Positions 26,739 to 33,623 of a stretch of 64,000 nt of DNA are shown one piece after another. The notes beneath the pieces are model-generated. The model was not told the DNA's origin. It worked only from the letters and a program-made list of their open reading frames with translations, and did not search any database. Both the position numbers and the translations under genes were made by a program. Numbering within the stretch: the stretch's first letter is position 1; each line of letters starts with the position of its first letter. This DNA comes from Roseibium alexandrii DFL-11 (lineage in GTDB: Bacteria; Pseudomonadota; Alphaproteobacteria; Rhizobiales; Stappiaceae), in the NCBI RefSeq assembly GCF_000158095.2, contig NZ_CM011002.1, positions 2,247,228 through 2,311,227 of the forward strand, written 5' to 3'.

Positions 26739-26942
26739 TTATTCTGGATGTTTCGTTCTGGCAGCCGCCTCAAGCAGGGTTTTCAGCTCGCCCGGATCGC
26801 CGATGCGGTTGGCCATCAACAGGATGAGCCGGGCATTGAAGGCATCGCTTTCGGCCTTTGAGAGCCCCTCATGGGCCTCCAAAAGGTCTGCGTAAAAGTC
26901 GTCCGGGTGGCGCAGTTGCGCCTTGGTGATATGCGCTGTCAT
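26739..26942 (-). CDS. DUF2783-type small protein
   Basis: A 67-residue protein, mostly helical and polar (DDFYADLLEAHEGLSKAESD and LLMANRIGDPGELKTLLEAA). The look and the position directly after an aromatic-type FAD monooxygenase match DUF2783. Its ATG overlaps the monooxygenase stop by one base (TGATG), so it is translationally coupled and probably acts with that enzyme. No biochemical role is known. Confidence 0.75.
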   Translation of the reverse strand: MTAHITKAQLRHPDDFYADLLEAHEGLSKAESDAFNARLILLMANRIGDPGELKTLLEAAARTKHPE

Positions 26943-28558
26943 CAGGCCGCCTCCCCTTTTCCGATCGCCCGGTTCAAGGCTGTTTCAATCTGTACCCAAT
27001 CAAGCGCTGTCCAGCGCGCAGCCACATGCTGGTCCGGCCGCACCAGATAAATCGCGGCGCCGGCATCGCCCAGATACCGAGACCGAAGCTCTGCGCCGAT
27101 GTCGCCGTCCGCAACAAAAATCCCCTCAACGGAAAGTCCGGCAATGTCGGCCCGTTCCGGGATCTCCAGGCCCAGCGCGAGCAACTTGAACCCATCGCCC
27201 AGCCGATCCGACAGCCACTCCCCGCCAACCGGCGTGTCCGCCGCCGGACTGCCCGGCCGCGTGCGGACCGGCAGGCCGTCTACATCGTCGCTGTTCAACG
27301 GTGACGTTTCATAGACGCACGGCACTGACAGGCGCCCGGAATTCACCAGTGGCCGGGCGAATTCGTACGTTTCGGACAGATCCAGAACCGCATCGCGGAA
27401 GATCCGGCTCATCTCCGATTTTGGCGTGATGAAGTCGGTCGAACGGGAACTTTGCAGGATGTTTTCATCCGCTGCCCATTCGCGCTCCAGCCCATAACTG
27501 TCCAAAAGGCTTTCCGGCGCCTGGCCTTCCAGAACAAGTTTCAATTTCCAGCCGAGATTGTCGGTGTCCTGAAAGCCCGAGTTTGCGCCGCGCGCACCGA
27601 ACGGCGAGACCTGGTGCGCGGCGTCCCCGGCAAAGATCACGCGGCCATGGCGGAACTTTTCCATGCGGCGGCACTGGAAGGTGTAAATCGACACCCACTC
27701 CAGATCGAACTCCACGTCTTCGCCGAGCATCTGCTTCAGACGCGGAATGACGTTTTCCGGCTTCTTCTCTTCTTCCTTGTCGATGTCCCAGCCGAGCTGC
27801 AAATCGATACGCCAAACGCCGTCCGGCTGCTTGTGCAAGAGCGCTGACTGGTCCTTGTTGAACGGCGGATCGAACCAGAACCAGCGCTCGGTCGGGAAGT
27901 CCGCCTTCATGATCACGTCTGCAATCAGGAAGTTGTCCTCAAACACCCGGCCGACAAAATCCAGATCCAGCATCCGGCGAGACGGAGAACCGGCGCCGTC
28001 ACAAGCGATCAACCAGTCAGCCTCGATCCGGTAGGCACCATCCTGAGTGTCGATGATCAGCGAGGCGTGATCGTCCATCTGATCGATGGAGGCGACCTTG
28101 TTGCCGCCGCGAATGTCGACCGGCTTGCCTTCCTGCTGAAGGGCGCGCAGACGCTCCACCAGATAGAGTTCGCAGTAATATTGCTGAAGATTGATGAAGG
28201 CCGGGCGCTTGTGTCCTTCCTCCGGCAAGAGGTCGAAATTGTAGACCTGACGGTCGCCAAAAAAGACCCGGCCATGGCTCCAGACCACACCCTTCTCGAC
28301 CATCTGATCGCCGCAGCCGTAGCGGTCTAGGATCTCCAGGGACCTCTTGGAAAAACAGATCGCGCGGGATCCAACGCTGACCTTGTCATTGTCGTCGAGG
28401 ATGACAACCGGGATATCCTGCTGGGCCAGATCGATCGCCATCGCAAGGCCGACCGGGCCGGCGCCAATAATCACCACCGGATGGCGCACCGGCGCGGTTG
28501 TCTCCTGATCGGGGGACCACTTGTAGGGATACAGCGGCACTTCGAACAATTTGGTCAC
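26942..28558 (-). CDS. FAD-dependent aromatic hydroxylase (MhpA/phenol hydroxylase-like)
   Basis: A 538-residue class A flavoprotein monooxygenase: GAGPVGLAMAIDLAQQDIPV at the N-terminus, LIACDGAGSPSRRMLDL (DG motif) and FAGDAAHQVSPFGARGANSG (GD motif). The C-terminal 150 residues resemble the thioredoxin-like tail of phenol hydroxylases. It would hydroxylate a phenolic acid. In a homogentisate cluster it may generate homogentisate from a hydroxyphenylacetate, which is inference. The ATG overlaps the DinB gene stop by 4 bases. Confidence 0.87.
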   Translation of the reverse strand: MTKLFEVPLYPYKWSPDQETTAPVRHPVVIIGAGPVGLAMAIDLAQQDIPVVILDDNDKVSVGSRAICFSKRSLEILDRYGCGDQMVEKGVVWSHGRVFFGDRQVYNFDLLPEEGHKRPAFINLQQYYCELYLVERLRALQQEGKPVDIRGGNKVASIDQMDDHASLIIDTQDGAYRIEADWLIACDGAGSPSRRMLDLDFVGRVFEDNFLIADVIMKADFPTERWFWFDPPFNKDQSALLHKQPDGVWRIDLQLGWDIDKEEEKKPENVIPRLKQMLGEDVEFDLEWVSIYTFQCRRMEKFRHGRVIFAGDAAHQVSPFGARGANSGFQDTDNLGWKLKLVLEGQAPESLLDSYGLEREWAADENILQSSRSTDFITPKSEMSRIFRDAVLDLSETYEFARPLVNSGRLSVPCVYETSPLNSDDVDGLPVRTRPGSPAADTPVGGEWLSDRLGDGFKLLALGLEIPERADIAGLSVEGIFVADGDIGAELRSRYLGDAGAAIYLVRPDQHVAARWTALDWVQIETALNRAIGKGEAA

Positions 28559-29106
28559 AGGTTCTCCTCCCTGCTGAACGTGTCGATATGTCGTTGAGCT
28601 GCCGGATGGCGCTCAAAGTTGAGAAAGAATTCATCCAGCTGCGGCGGGGCAACGCTTGTTCCAGCCAACATCGCATGAGCCTGCCCACGGTGATGGATCT
28701 GGTGCTGAAACAGATGCATCAATGTGGCTGCGATCGTTTCCTTGACCGTACCCTTCGCCCCACGATCCTGGGCAATTTCGCGCTCCAGATCCGATGCGCG
28801 CAATCCATCACAAAACGCGATCAACTGCCGGTCCAAACCGGCTTGGGCCATAGCTAGGTCATTCGCGTCCCGAAGAAACGGCACCTCAAAAACCGCCAGC
28901 CCCTCACCGCCCTCGGTCAGCGCGTCCAGATAATACCGGTCGACTTCCCAGTTGTGGTTCAGCGTTTCGAGAAGGGACGGAAAGAAATTGGTTCTCTCCG
29001 CCTCAAACTCGACCTGGCTGAGCTTGCAACACGCCTCGTAGAGCCGCTCATTGGCGTAGGCATTGTTGCGCGCCATCAAGCGCAGATGATCGAGGGCTGC
29101 ACTCAT
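28555..29106 (-). CDS. DinB/MDMPI-fold metalloprotein in the homogentisate cluster
   Basis: A 183-residue four-helix-bundle protein of the DinB superfamily. Candidate metal ligands are H51 (LNHNWEVDRYY) and H135/H139 in LFQHQIHHRGQAHAM, the classic HxxxH...RGQ pattern. The superfamily includes thiol-dependent transferases and maleylpyruvate isomerase. The start is the ATG at 29106 with AGGG nearby; a GTG lies three bases upstream. It is coupled to the FAD hydroxylase. No zeta-class GST (MaiA) is seen in this cluster, so an isomerase role is possible but unproven. Confidence 0.85.
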   Translation of the reverse strand: MSAALDHLRLMARNNAYANERLYEACCKLSQVEFEAERTNFFPSLLETLNHNWEVDRYYLDALTEGGEGLAVFEVPFLRDANDLAMAQAGLDRQLIAFCDGLRASDLEREIAQDRGAKGTVKETIAATLMHLFQHQIHHRGQAHAMLAGTSVAPPQLDEFFLNFERHPAAQRHIDTFSREENL

Positions 29107-29109
29107 CAC

Positions 29110-30069
29110 TCAGCCCTGCAGGTCCGCCCACATCTTTGCATCGCGTTCTGCGGTCCAGATGCGCGGCGTGTCGATGCCCAGCGCCTCGTCGTAGGCGCGC
29201 GCCACGTTGAACGGCAGGCAGTGTTCGTAGATCGCATAGTCCTTGAACTTCGGATCGCATTCGGCGCGGCAGGCGTCCCAAGCCTCTTTCAAGGTTCCGC
29301 CACCCTGCGCTACCCGGGCAACCGGCTTGTAGGTGGAGGTTACGAAGTCGGCGGTGTTCGTCAGCGCTTTGCCGACCATTTCCTTGCCGACCAGTGCATC
29401 GCCACGGCCCGGTGCAATCGCTTCAACGTCATAGGCGCGGATCGCTTCCAGTGTTTTCGGCCAGTCGTTGAAATGACCGTCTCCGCAATAACACGCCGAG
29501 TGATATTCAACGATGTCGCCGGTGAACATGACGTTTTCGTCCGGCACATGAATGACGATGTCGCCAGCTGTATGCGCCCGTCCCAGGAAGCTGAGATCCA
29601 CACGGCGCTTGCCCAGATAAACGGTCATGCTGTCGTTGAAAGTGGTCGTCGGCCAGGTCAGCGGCGGGATTTTGCTGACGTCATCATAGCCCATGAACAG
29701 GCGCGGAAAACGCATGAATTCCGATTCCCTGTCTTCCGCACCGCGCTCCACAACCATGGACCGCGCCTTCTGGCTCATGATGATGTTCGGTGCCTGATAG
29801 GCCGCAGCTCCCAGGACCCGAACAGCATGATAGTGGGTCAAGACCAGGTGGCTGATCGGCTTGTCAGTGACGGACCGGACCTTTTCGATGACCTTGCCCG
29901 CCAGCGCCGGTGTCGCCTGCGCCTCGATGATCATGACACTGTCGTCACCGATGATCACGCCGGTGTTCGGGTCACCCTCGGCGGTAAAGGCCCAAAGATC
30001 CTTGCCAATCTCTTCAAACGTGATCTTCTTTTCTTCCATGTCGCCGACAGAGGCGAATTGCTTGCTCAT
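29110..30069 (-). CDS. MBL-fold protein with incomplete second metal site
   Basis: A 319-residue metallo-beta-lactamase-fold protein. The usual HxHxDH is H79-Y-H81-A-V-R here, so the two first-site histidines remain while the second-site Asp and His are Val83 and Arg84. H166 (GRAHTAGD) and the bridging D185 (MFTGDIVEYH) are kept, but the final PGHG-type loop is PGRG with Arg222. So zinc site 1 and the bridging residue can form, while site 2 cannot. It lies three bases upstream of the DinB start, within the homogentisate operon. The substrate is unknown. Confidence 0.82.
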   Translation of the reverse strand: MSKQFASVGDMEEKKITFEEIGKDLWAFTAEGDPNTGVIIGDDSVMIIEAQATPALAGKVIEKVRSVTDKPISHLVLTHYHAVRVLGAAAYQAPNIIMSQKARSMVVERGAEDRESEFMRFPRLFMGYDDVSKIPPLTWPTTTFNDSMTVYLGKRRVDLSFLGRAHTAGDIVIHVPDENVMFTGDIVEYHSACYCGDGHFNDWPKTLEAIRAYDVEAIAPGRGDALVGKEMVGKALTNTADFVTSTYKPVARVAQGGGTLKEAWDACRAECDPKFKDYAIYEHCLPFNVARAYDEALGIDTPRIWTAERDAKMWADLQG

Positions 30070-30234: not shown

Positions 30235-31245
30235 TCACAGAGCCTGTTGTACTGTCTGTTCAATAGCGCCGAAAATGGAATGCCCTTCCCCGTCCAGCAT
30301 CTCGATGCGGATCGTGTCGCCGAATTTGAGGAACGGCGTTGTTGCCTCGCCGTTTTCGATTGTCTCGATCACGCGCAGCTCCGCGATGCAGGAATATCCG
30401 GCCCCACCGTCGGCAAGTGATTTGCCCGGACCACCGCCCATTTTGTTGGAGACCGTGCCGGACCCGATGATCGTGCCCGCGCTGAGCGTCCGTGTCTTGG
30501 CCGCATGGGCGATCAACTGGCCGAAATCAAAGGTCATGTCGACGCCCCCTTCCGCCCGGCCAAAGGGCTGACCATTGAGGTCGACATGCAGCGGCAGATG
30601 CAGCTTCCCGTTTCTCCAGGCCTCACCCAATTCATCGGGCGTCACAGCAACAGGCGAAAAGGCCGAGGACGGTTTTGACTGGAAGAAGCCAAAGCCTTTG
30701 CCCAGCTCGCCCGGGATCAGACCCCGCAAAGAGACATCGTTGACGAGCAGCACCAGCTTGACATGAGACAGGGCCTCTTCAGCGCTCACGCCCATCGGCA
30801 CATCGCCGGTGATGACCGCGATCTCACCTTCCATGTCGATGCCATAGGCTTCGTCGCGCATTTTGATCGGATCGCGGGGCGCGATAAACGTATCTGAGCC
30901 GCCTTGATACATCAGCGGGTCTGTCCAAAAGCTCTCCGGCATTTTTGCGCGGCGGGCTTTGCGCACCAGCTCGACGTGGTTCACATAAGCGGATCCGTCG
31001 GCCCACTGATAGGCGCGCGGCAACGGCGACAAGGCATCGTGTTCGTGAAAGCGCAGGGTTGGCACGGCGTCATGGGAGAGGCTTTCGGCAAGCACTTGCA
31101 GCTTGGGTGCAACATGATCCCAATCGTCCAGCGCCGCCTGCAGGGTCGGTGCAATGTGGCTGGCATCCGTGCAATAGGTCAGCCGCTCGTTGACCACCAC
31201 CAGTTTTCCGTCCCGGCTGCCGTCTTTCAAACTCGCCAGTTTCAT
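30235..31245 (-). CDS. fumarylacetoacetate hydrolase-family protein
   Basis: A 336-residue FAH-family hydrolase. The acidic metal-binding segment GIDMEGEIAVITGDVP and the conserved LVLLVNDVSLRGL, GFGFFQSKPSSAFSP and GTIIGSGTVSNK are seen. In a cluster with homogentisate dioxygenase it most likely cleaves fumarylacetoacetate to fumarate and acetoacetate. It is shorter than eukaryotic FAH, as usual for bacterial forms. GGGAGATGCATTC precedes the ATG. Confidence 0.9.
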   Translation of the reverse strand: MKLASLKDGSRDGKLVVVNERLTYCTDASHIAPTLQAALDDWDHVAPKLQVLAESLSHDAVPTLRFHEHDALSPLPRAYQWADGSAYVNHVELVRKARRAKMPESFWTDPLMYQGGSDTFIAPRDPIKMRDEAYGIDMEGEIAVITGDVPMGVSAEEALSHVKLVLLVNDVSLRGLIPGELGKGFGFFQSKPSSAFSPVAVTPDELGEAWRNGKLHLPLHVDLNGQPFGRAEGGVDMTFDFGQLIAHAAKTRTLSAGTIIGSGTVSNKMGGGPGKSLADGGAGYSCIAELRVIETIENGEATTPFLKFGDTIRIEMLDGEGHSIFGAIEQTVQQAL

Positions 31246-31263: not shown

Positions 31264-32115
31264 CTATTTTGTTATGACCAATCCATCATGACCGACAATT
31301 GTCTGCCCGGAAAAGGTTTCTGTTGCCTCCAACCACTCCTGCCCTTCGAAACCGGGTAAATCTGCCGGGATCAGGTGGTTGAGGAGAAGGGTTTTGGCTT
31401 GGGCCATCTCGGCAATCTTGGCAGCATCCGGCGCCATCGTGTGGCTTGCCCACAAATGCGCGCGCAGCCGGTCGCCATTGCCCGTGATCTCGACGATTTT
31501 GTCGACACCGCGCTGAAGCATGGCCTCGTGCACCAGAACATCGCAATCCTTGGCAAAGACGGCGAGCGGCGGGAAGAAGGCAGTGTCAGCGGAAAAGACC
31601 ACCGACCAGTCCTTCGTATCGAACCGCAAGGCGAAACAATCGACCACCGGCGGGTGATCGACACGCAGCGCCTTTAGCGCCAAGCCACTTTCTTCAAGCG
31701 GTACCTCACCCTCTGCCAACAGGTGAATTTCGACGAGATCCCGCAGATCCGGTCGGCCTTCATCATCAATCCGCAGATCGATGTCGTAGCGCATGGAAGC
31801 AAGGAACCCGTCCAAATACTCCATCAGGTCAACCGGGCCGAACACCTTGACCTTATGCGCCAGCCCGCTGGTCCAGGCTGTATGCAACAAAGGTCCGAGC
31901 TCCAGAACATGATCGGAATGCATGTGCGTGATGAAGATGAGGTCCAGCTCTTTCAAGGAGACCCCGGCGTCGACCAGGCCCCGGGTCACCCCGAGACCAC
32001 AATCGATGACACAGCGCCGGCCGCCAATCTCGATCAGGGAACTCGTTGGCGACGGCCCGCCCGGCCGGATCGCCGGCCCACCTTTGGAGCCCAAAATGAC
32101 GAGACGGTCATCCAT
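31264..32115 (-). CDS. MBL-fold metallohydrolase, RNase Z/arylsulfatase-like
   Basis: A 283-residue protein with a complete motif ITHMHSDHVLELGPL, plus VVFSADTAFFPPL, VHEAML, SHTMAPDAAKIA and LLNHLIPAD, giving the full two-zinc ligand set of the RNase Z-like branch. Homologues are often found with aromatic degradation genes; the substrate here is not known. The start at 32115 (MDDRLVILGSKGG) fits the fold; the in-frame extension to 32205 runs through a repeat and is rejected. It lies 18 bases upstream of the fumarylacetoacetase gene. Confidence 0.85.
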   Translation of the reverse strand: MDDRLVILGSKGGPAIRPGGPSPTSSLIEIGGRRCVIDCGLGVTRGLVDAGVSLKELDLIFITHMHSDHVLELGPLLHTAWTSGLAHKVKVFGPVDLMEYLDGFLASMRYDIDLRIDDEGRPDLRDLVEIHLLAEGEVPLEESGLALKALRVDHPPVVDCFALRFDTKDWSVVFSADTAFFPPLAVFAKDCDVLVHEAMLQRGVDKIVEITGNGDRLRAHLWASHTMAPDAAKIAEMAQAKTLLLNHLIPADLPGFEGQEWLEATETFSGQTIVGHDGLVITK

Positions 32116-32181
32116 GTCCGCTTTGCCCTGCACCCACACACTCCTTGCCAGCATCGACAACTGCGCTTTTCCTAAAAAGCT

Positions 32182-32234
32182 GTCCCGGATGTGATCCGGG
32201 ACCAACCCTGAAGGCCCCGGATCATATTCGGGGC
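32182..32234. repeat. two REP-like palindromes after hmgA
   Basis: GTCCCGGAT/ATCCGGGAC (32182-32202, 9-bp stem, 3-base loop) and GCCCCG...CGGGGC (32214-32234) separate hmgA from the MBL gene. They belong to the GC-rich intergenic family. They may allow higher hmgA expression relative to downstream genes. Confidence 0.65.
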
Positions 32235-32249
32235 GGCAAACAGTGTCAG

Positions 32250-33623
32250 TTACTTCTTATCCCAGGTGCCTTCCGGCGTGCCGTCGAACTTCTTCTCCAG
32301 GCTGTCCCAGCAGTCGATGTAATTGTCCTGCAACGGCGCGTCCTTCGCGGCATATTCGGTCAGGTGCTGCGGAAACCGGGTCTCAAACATGAAGGACATC
32401 GTGTTGTCGAGCTTTTCGGCCTTCAGGTCCGCATTGGATGCCCCCTCAAAGGCATCGTTGTCCGGTCCATGCGGCAGCATCATGTTGTGAAGGCTCATAC
32501 CACCCGGCACGAAGCCTTGTGGTTTGGCGTCATACTGACCATAGATGTTGCCCATCAGCTCGGACATGATGTTCTTGTGATACCAGGGCGGGCGGAAAGT
32601 ATTTTCGGCCACCATCCAGCGCTCACGGAACAGAACGAAGTCGATGTTGGCCGTTCCAGGCACACCAGACGGCGCGGTCAAGACAGTGAAGATCGACGGG
32701 TCCGGATGGTCGAACAGGATCGCCCCGACCGGGCAATAGGTTCTGAGGTCATATTTCACCGGTGCGTAGTTGCCGTGCCAGGCAACCACATCGAGCGGCG
32801 AGTGACCGATCTTGGTCTCGTGGAACTGGCCACACCATTTCACCGTGACTTTACTTGGCACTTCCTTGTCTTCATACCAGGCGACCGGTGTCTTGAAGTC
32901 CCGGCGGTTGGCCATGCAGTTGGCCCCAATCGGGCCGCGGCCCGGCAGCTCGAATTTCTGGCCATAGTTTTCGCAGACGAACCCGCGTGCCGGGCCTTCA
33001 ACAACCTCGACCCGGTAGACAAGACCGCGCGGCAGAATGGCGATTTCCTTCGGCTCCAGCTCGATAATACCAAGCTCGGTGTAGAAGCGGAGAATGCCCT
33101 CCTGCGGCACGACCAGAAGCTCGCTGTCGGCGGAGAAGAAGTACTCATCTTCCATCGACTTCGTCGCAAGGTAGATATGCGTTGCCATGCCGACCTGGGT
33201 GTTCACATCCCCGGCCGTCGTCATCGAGCGCATGCCGGTCAGCCAATTCAGCCCCTCATCGGCGTGCGGCACCGGATCCCAGCGGTATTGGCCGAGCGAA
33301 ATGACATCTTCGCAGACGTTCGGCGCGCTTTTCCAATAGGGCAGATCGATTTTCTGAAACCGGCTGGTGTGCTTAACCGATGGCCGGATGCGATAACACC
33401 ATGTCCGCTCGTTTTGATGGCTTGGCGCGGTAAAGGCGGTACCGGACAACTGTTCGCCATAAAGCCCATAAGCGCATTTCTGCGGGCTGTTCATGCCTTG
33501 CGGCAGCGCGCCCGGCAGGACTTCGGTCTCAAAATCGTTGCCGAAACCCGGCATATACTGGAGCTCGTTGGAAAGCGGCTTGCCGCCGTCGCCGGAAACT
33601 TGCTTGTGATCGACCTTGTTCAT
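32250..33623 (-). CDS. hmgA: homogentisate 1,2-dioxygenase
   Basis: A 457-residue protein matching HmgA along its length: [58 protein letters not shown] region, [15 protein letters not shown] and [16 protein letters not shown] carrying iron-ligand His and Glu residues. It opens the homogentisate ring to maleylacetoacetate in tyrosine and phenylacetate-type catabolism. GGGAGG precedes the ATG. It is the first gene of the cluster, directly behind the promoter and palindrome at 33658-33694. Confidence 0.97.

Follow-up and report, generated by a model that had tools for sequence, protein, structure and literature searches.

The DinB-superfamily protein of the Roseibium alexandrii homogentisate cluster: a probable accessory enzyme and an unlikely substitute for the missing maleylacetoacetate isomerase

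The window analysed here is a 64,000-nucleotide stretch of the Roseibium alexandrii DFL-11 genome (contig NZ_CM011002.1, positions 2,247,228 to 2,311,227), which contains a homogentisate cluster on its minus strand. Read along that strand, the genes are ordered hmgA, MBL1, FAH, MBL2, DinB, FAD monooxygenase and a 67-aa protein (Table 1), with DinB placed between MBL2 and the monooxygenase. The frames of DinB and the monooxygenase overlap by 4 bases at the DinB end, and the DinB frame also contains a GTG at 29109. The 67-aa protein occupies the position held in related clusters by DUF2783-matching proteins, two of which were scanned. The sequence-only reading of this DNA had described a DinB-superfamily protein with three histidines in a cluster that has homogentisate dioxygenase and fumarylacetoacetase and lacks MaiA, and this description was borne out; a search of the window with a profile built from 43 MaiA rows (E up to 1) revealed no MaiA-like frame.

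Table 1 Genes of the homogentisate cluster in the window
Feature	Position	Strand	Remarks
hmgA, homogentisate 1,2-dioxygenase	32250..33623	minus	TIGR01015, 649 bits, above cut-off
MBL1, MBL-fold metallohydrolase, RNase Z-like	31264..32205	minus	absent from the clusters of some congeners
FAH, two-domain fumarylacetoacetase-type hydrolase	30235..31245	minus	FAA_hydro_N_2 (PF18288) and FAA_hydrolase (PF01557)
MBL2, MBL-fold metallohydrolase	29110..30069	minus	SoxH-related profiles match under their cut-offs
DinB-superfamily protein (P0001), 183 aa + stop	28555..29106	minus	His51, His135, His139
FAD-dependent monooxygenase, NF006002/PRK08132 subfamily	26942..28558	minus	NF006002, 791 bits
67-aa small protein	26739..26942	minus	by-eye likeness to DUF2783 (PF10932) proteins

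MBL2 is frequent in the hmg clusters of relatives. Across the family, MBL2, the FAD monooxygenase, a DUF2783-type protein and often a VOC protein are frequent companions of hmgA-FAH, and they are seen with or without MaiA or DinB (L040, L097-L113, L305-L308, L316, L318 and L326-L329). No paper on homogentisate and DUF2783 was found in a literature search. Congeners carry extra genes in the FAH-MBL2 and MBL2-monooxygenase gaps (L097 4786-5658; L105 2735-3369 and 4345-5607), among them a beta-lactamase-like frame and an antitoxin and PIN toxin-like pair, both recognised by eye, and a P450 (PF00067). In L103 and L108 (genomes G305 and G312), a long-type fumarylacetoacetase replaces the two-domain FAH in the cluster. 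HPPD and glutathione synthetase were found above cut-off in all 15 genus genomes checked, including the six described below that have neither MaiA nor intact DinB. In all but one of the 15 (G305), the two genes are no more than ~2.5 kb apart; the pair in G000 is located at C1:4050921-4052995.

The window protein belongs to the DinB/YfiT superfamily, which it resembles in family profile, fold and histidine triad. It matches PF05163 (DinB) with an E-value of 2.6e-20 and 73.5 bits against a cut-off of 23, and PF12867 (DinB_2) at 6.8e-7. At E up to 0.001, these and a sub-threshold match to the mycothiol S-transferase (MST) family (21 bits against a cut-off of 27) were the only Pfam matches, and no maleylpyruvate isomerase family was among them. 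His51, His135 and His139 are invariant across 47 aligned rows, the window row included, and the triad is kept in all 37 hmg/FAH-linked and all 38 unlinked copies labelled among the named homologues (the best 80 of at least 441). The three residues are expected to be metal ligands. The AlphaFold model built from the 47-row alignment has a mean pLDDT of 94.2 and predicts the four-helix bundle of the DinB fold. The top Foldseek ranks for the model were the DinB/YfiT proteins DR0053, YizA and YjoA of the PDB, and identity to the ten top-ranked solved structures was just 13–21%. A second, distant DinB protein (27% identity) is encoded elsewhere in the same genome.

Better-characterised proteins of the same fold differ from the window protein in several respects. 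Mycothiol-dependent maleylpyruvate isomerase (MDMPI, 2NSF), which acts on an analogous substrate, shares the DinB-like fold with a TM-score of 0.56 on the query; however, it ranked 26th in the Foldseek search, has 240 residues against 183, and is only 12% identical. The available part of PMC8562490 describes an MDMPI C-terminal domain with a conserved Arg222, whereas the window protein matches neither that domain nor the MDMPI Pfam family and falls outside this family. MST (8F5V, rank 13) and the bacillithiol transferase BstA also have the fold of the window protein, but the metal ligands of MST are two histidines and one aspartate according to the available part of PMC10950700, in contrast to the three conserved histidines found here. 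MaiA, the zeta-class GST (TIGR01262), is of a family unrelated to DinB, and the point in common is the isomerase step proposed for DinB.

Selection on DinB is purifying and weaker than on its cluster neighbours. In pairs of 28 genus genomes, median identity was 69% for DinB against 82–85% for FAH, MBL2 and the FAD monooxygenase, and median omega was 0.164 against 0.10–0.11 (with FAH compared over 136 pairs rather than 378, because many loci end early). DinB is thus the least conserved of the four cluster genes compared.

The lack of maiA noted in the cluster extends to the complete genome. A TIGR01262 search of the assembly (5.46 Mb, 3 contigs, 100% complete) yielded no MaiA above cut-off and 14 weak matches, the best with 62 bits against 171. 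Eight of these 14, all GSTs, were scored against a profile of MaiA sequences and reached at most 58 bits; the six GST alignments printed in full lack a zeta-class look by eye. An ion channel-SDR locus carries maiA in ten congeners, while the own genome keeps this locus without maiA. Among the 16 genomes checked at the locus, maiA is absent from the own genome and 14 others and present in G305.

On the MaiA tree, the 14 genes of type B in the genus join the in-cluster MaiA of G338, G343 and G348 under one starred fork. This shared fork weakens the idea that the MaiA of DinB-bearing genomes is a gentisate-pathway enzyme only. The weakening is tempered by loci in which MaiA is paired with a small FAA hydrolase, namely L124 and L132 (both Stappiaceae), L255, and L250-L253 (Paraburkholderia), where the hydrolase was assigned by Pfam in L124, L250 and L255 and by similarity in the rest. 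Five of the 14 type-B genes adjoin a guanine deaminase gene, and the one such locus scanned contains guanine deaminase and XdhC. In G306, a fragment 84% identical to HmgA (L119 4688-4978) adjoins the long-branch MaiA gene.

Linkage of DinB to hmgA/FAH is real. Among PF05163 members, the subfamily of the window protein is often hmgA/FAH-linked and mostly alphaproteobacterial, as judged from the best 80 of at least 441 homologues, with flanks of 8 kb and some contigs shorter than that. Within this named set, hmgA lies within 8 kb of DinB in 32 cases from several families, and five further homologues have an FAH of 66–78% identity; the nearest DinB locus is 91% identical and the next three are from Roseibium species. 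Hosts of hmg-linked DinB among the matches listed are Mesorhizobium, Bosea, Chelativorans, Nitratireductor and several Rhodobacterales. A Mesorhizobium locus (L177) has the order aminotransferase, ADH, MarR, hmgA, FAH, DinB and HPPD. DinB often directly follows FAH in Mesorhizobium and Bosea, and at most loci of these genera it comes after FAH while neither MBL2 nor the FAD monooxygenase is close by (exceptions L182 and L184), so that hmgA/FAH appears as the steadier partner. The linked label changes 7 times on the DinB tree, compared with a shuffled mean of 26.6, and 4 times in a final count from which the ambiguous loci L179, L181, L192, L202 and L238 were left out, as they were from the residue count given below. 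A MaiA search covered the host genomes of 50 named loci out of the 80, and MaiA is present in 27 of the 32 genomes with a named hmgA-linked DinB. Four Bosea genomes have an FAH-linked DinB, and three of them lack MaiA (L183, L185 and L194).

Three Aminobacter loci (L179, L181 and L202) combine MBL1, a divergent FAH-like protein (38–40% to the window FAH) and DinB, and their 8-kb flanks contain no hmgA. The cluster of L179 is preceded by a TM_HPP protein and by an aminotransferase-like and an ADH-like frame, both recognised by similarity.

DinB had been described as sitting in the place of MaiA. It does lie in a cluster devoid of MaiA, but the phrase overstates its position, since most of the hmg loci read have no maiA nearby and DinB is found between MBL2 and the monooxygenase. 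The further claim that DinB replaces the missing MaiA was examined by surveying DinB, MaiA and HmgA in 121 relatives and 289 class genomes, the class being taken as Alphaproteobacteria. Among 110 distinct genomes with hmgA, MaiA was present in 24 of the 32 with hmg-linked DinB and in 61 of the 78 without it (Fisher p = 0.80). Recognisable MaiA was absent from 25 of the 110, and 17 had neither MaiA nor linked DinB. The complementary distribution expected of a replacement is therefore not seen over these 110 genomes. The genus sample (45 genomes, 41 with hmgA, G346 being scored MaiA-positive though its match is under the curated score) comprised 21 genomes with both proteins, 7 with DinB only, 7 with MaiA only and 6 with neither (p = 0.28, odds against replacement). 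A lean towards replacement was observed in the hmgA-bearing class sample taken alone, where linked DinB occurred in 2 of 10 MaiA-less and 0 of 26 MaiA-positive genomes (p = 0.07); omitting the own genome gave 1 of 9 against 0 of 26 (p = 0.26). Counting only MaiA of the ion channel locus in the hmgA-bearing genus genomes produced a lean in the same direction, with 5 of 28 DinB-positive against 5 of 13 DinB-negative genomes (p = 0.24). Neither lean is statistically significant.

Changes of state were followed on a tree of 45 rows built from MBL2 plus residues 1–500 of the FAD monooxygenase, which is not a species tree and may be distorted by recombination. This tree implies 4 changes for MaiA and no fewer than 12 for DinB. 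Over nine independent DinB contrasts, MaiA differed in the same direction in 1.9, in the opposite direction in 0.0 and not at all in 7.1 (averages); compensation was thus not found, although the result does not amount to a significance test, a sign test being unable to reach significance because there are only nine independent contrasts on starred branches. The reverse test with three MaiA-differing pairs gave one compensating pair in a few of 200 random pairings (mean 0.0). MaiA often occurs in the same genome as hmg-linked DinB and sometimes in the same cluster, as in six records (L110, L178, L222, L229, L242 and L246).

Intact DinB is missing from 6 of the 13 MaiA-less genus genomes that have hmgA, showing that it is not retained wherever MaiA is absent. 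Five of them (G291, G293, G295, G323 and G332) have hmgA, no MaiA above cut-off and no linked DinB, and in the sixth (G308), which also lacks MaiA, DinB survives as a broken remnant. These double negatives are spread over three of the four MaiA-less lineages, and the completeness of all six is 99–100%. The gaps read in G291, G295, G323 and G308 retain the end of the DinB frame, while its middle or all the rest is gone; the kept tail bears the ribosome site of the downstream monooxygenase. Omega between G291 and G295 was 0.036 for HmgA, 0.069 for FAH, 0.032 for MBL2 and 0.071 for the FAD monooxygenase (dS ~1), values that may partly cover a period before DinB loss because the DinB-positive G000 and G292 group with G295. 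G291 and G295 have a similar gap, yet given this grouping DinB may have been lost separately in the two or regained. Between G323 and G308, the respective values were 0.057, 0.104, 0.053 and 0.117 (dS 0.4–0.6). As HmgA and FAH are conserved in the double negatives and HPPD and glutathione synthetase are present, the pathway looks maintained there without either protein. DinB and MaiA can both be absent while HmgA and FAH stay conserved, and the dispensability of DinB is judged from these relatives. In such genomes, maleylacetoacetate isomerisation either needs no dedicated enzyme or is carried out by an unrecognised one.

The proposed replacement of MaiA by DinB thus fails on the even distribution of MaiA, on the co-clustering of the two genes and on the double negatives. 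As an obligatory substitute, DinB is rejected by the distribution, the independent contrasts and the scars left at the locus. Since relatives lacking both proteins keep the pathway genes, DinB is probably an accessory enzyme and not the missing isomerase.

Unlinked copies of DinB bear on the breadth of its chemistry. A near copy (E below 1e-38) was found in 13 class genomes, 11 of which have no hmgA match at 1e-60. No alignment column (0 columns at 70% in each group) separates linked from unlinked DinB, and all 37 columns conserved at ≥90% in both groups hold the same residue. Ten proteins encoded near unlinked copies were scanned, out of 38 unlinked loci, and showed no tie to the homogentisate pathway and no positive hint of detoxification; they include IMPDH, MipZ and a DAHP synthase-family protein. 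The same neighbours recur mainly inside groups of related genomes. The shared conserved residues and the hosts without hmgA suggest that the chemistry of DinB is unlikely to be confined to homogentisate catabolism, even if the gene is favoured in that setting.

DinB as a new family of thiol-dependent maleylacetoacetate cis-trans isomerase, sole in this genome or redundant with MaiA elsewhere, is improbable. Such a role would agree with the complete own genome devoid of MaiA above cut-off, with linkage to hmgA/FAH over several families and often in MaiA-free clusters, with the three MaiA-less Bosea genomes, and with the leans in the class sample and the ion-channel-locus count. An L-cysteine-dependent maleylpyruvate isomerase of the DinB type is reportedly known from Paenibacillus and also counts in its favour. 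The same is true of the mycothiol-dependent maleylpyruvate isomerase, included in the DinB superfamily in the available parts of PMC8562490 and PMC4360819. However, neither the genome counts nor the nine contrasts showed compensation, DinB is lost or broken in MaiA-less genomes of three lineages, both genes are co-clustered in six records, and most genomes with a named hmgA-linked DinB also have MaiA. The lack of group-specific residues relative to unlinked copies, the lack of a maleylpyruvate isomerase Pfam match and the low rank of 2NSF argue in the same direction. It is equally doubtful that the hmg/FAH-linked clade is a glutathione-dependent maleylacetoacetate isomerase unrelated to zeta GSTs, one that shares the step with MaiA in many Alphaproteobacteria and is the only isomerase in this genome and in several species of Bosea and Roseibium.

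Two accounts would leave DinB outside the isomerisation step altogether. Direct hydrolysis of maleylacetoacetate by FAH, or its isomerisation by a non-MaiA GST, would make DinB irrelevant to the step and is a possible, if somewhat unlikely, explanation. It would accommodate the 17 genomes with neither MaiA nor linked DinB, and the 14 GST-like matches under the MaiA cut-off provide candidates in the own genome, but the eight scored GSTs reached at most 58 bits with the MaiA profile, six do not look zeta-class by eye, and direct hydrolysis would leave maleate to handle. Alternatively, DinB may have no role in metabolism of the ring-fission product and be kept by operon inheritance, or serve a module of the FAD monooxygenase and MBL2. 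This is consistent with the identity of linked and unlinked copies in the 37 conserved columns, with the varied contexts of the unlinked ones, with the overlap of DinB with the monooxygenase start and the ribosome site borne by its tail, and with the more frequent changes of DinB than of MaiA on the 45-row tree. It is unlikely nonetheless, given that at most Mesorhizobium and Bosea loci DinB comes after FAH in surroundings that lack both MBL2 and the FAD monooxygenase, and that linked copies mostly cluster on the DinB tree.

The explanation favoured here, with about an even chance of being correct, is that DinB is an accessory enzyme that depends on a metal and a thiol and acts on pathway electrophiles, and not a required isomerase. 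It would be a single-domain DinB/YfiT (S-transferase-like) enzyme long carried in many alphaproteobacterial hmgA-FAH clusters. A metal would be held at the histidine triad, a low-molecular-weight thiol, here probably glutathione, would be used, and reactive electrophiles arising around the pathway would be trapped or processed. Candidates are benzoquinone acetate (oxidised homogentisate), maleyl- and fumarylacetoacetate, and succinylacetone. Maleylacetoacetate itself may be isomerised by glutathione alone, or by some enzyme that does not belong to the MaiA family. In mice, a nonenzymatic bypass that depends on glutathione was reportedly described for the isomerase step by Fernandez-Canon in 2002. 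The metal, thiol, substrate and benefit are proposed by analogy with the superfamily as presented in the available parts of PMC4360819 and PMC10950700. Glutathione synthetase in the genus genomes checked fits a glutathione-based reaction; the inactivity of YfiT, a DinB S-transferase, with GSH, as given in the available part of PMC4360819, counts against it. The lasting linkage to hmgA/FAH exceeds what general detoxification predicts and fits a pathway enzyme, and the genomes without both proteins may hold an unrecognised isomerase; both points weigh against an accessory role.

Literature searches found no paper on homogentisate and a DinB family protein, on homogentisate and a glutathione-independent maleylacetoacetate isomerase, or on Roseibium and homogentisate, and none of the titles listed names a homogentisate-linked DinB protein. 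The hmg-linked DinB clade now constitutes a defined target for assay, and what began as a guess from one genome has been turned into a testable question.
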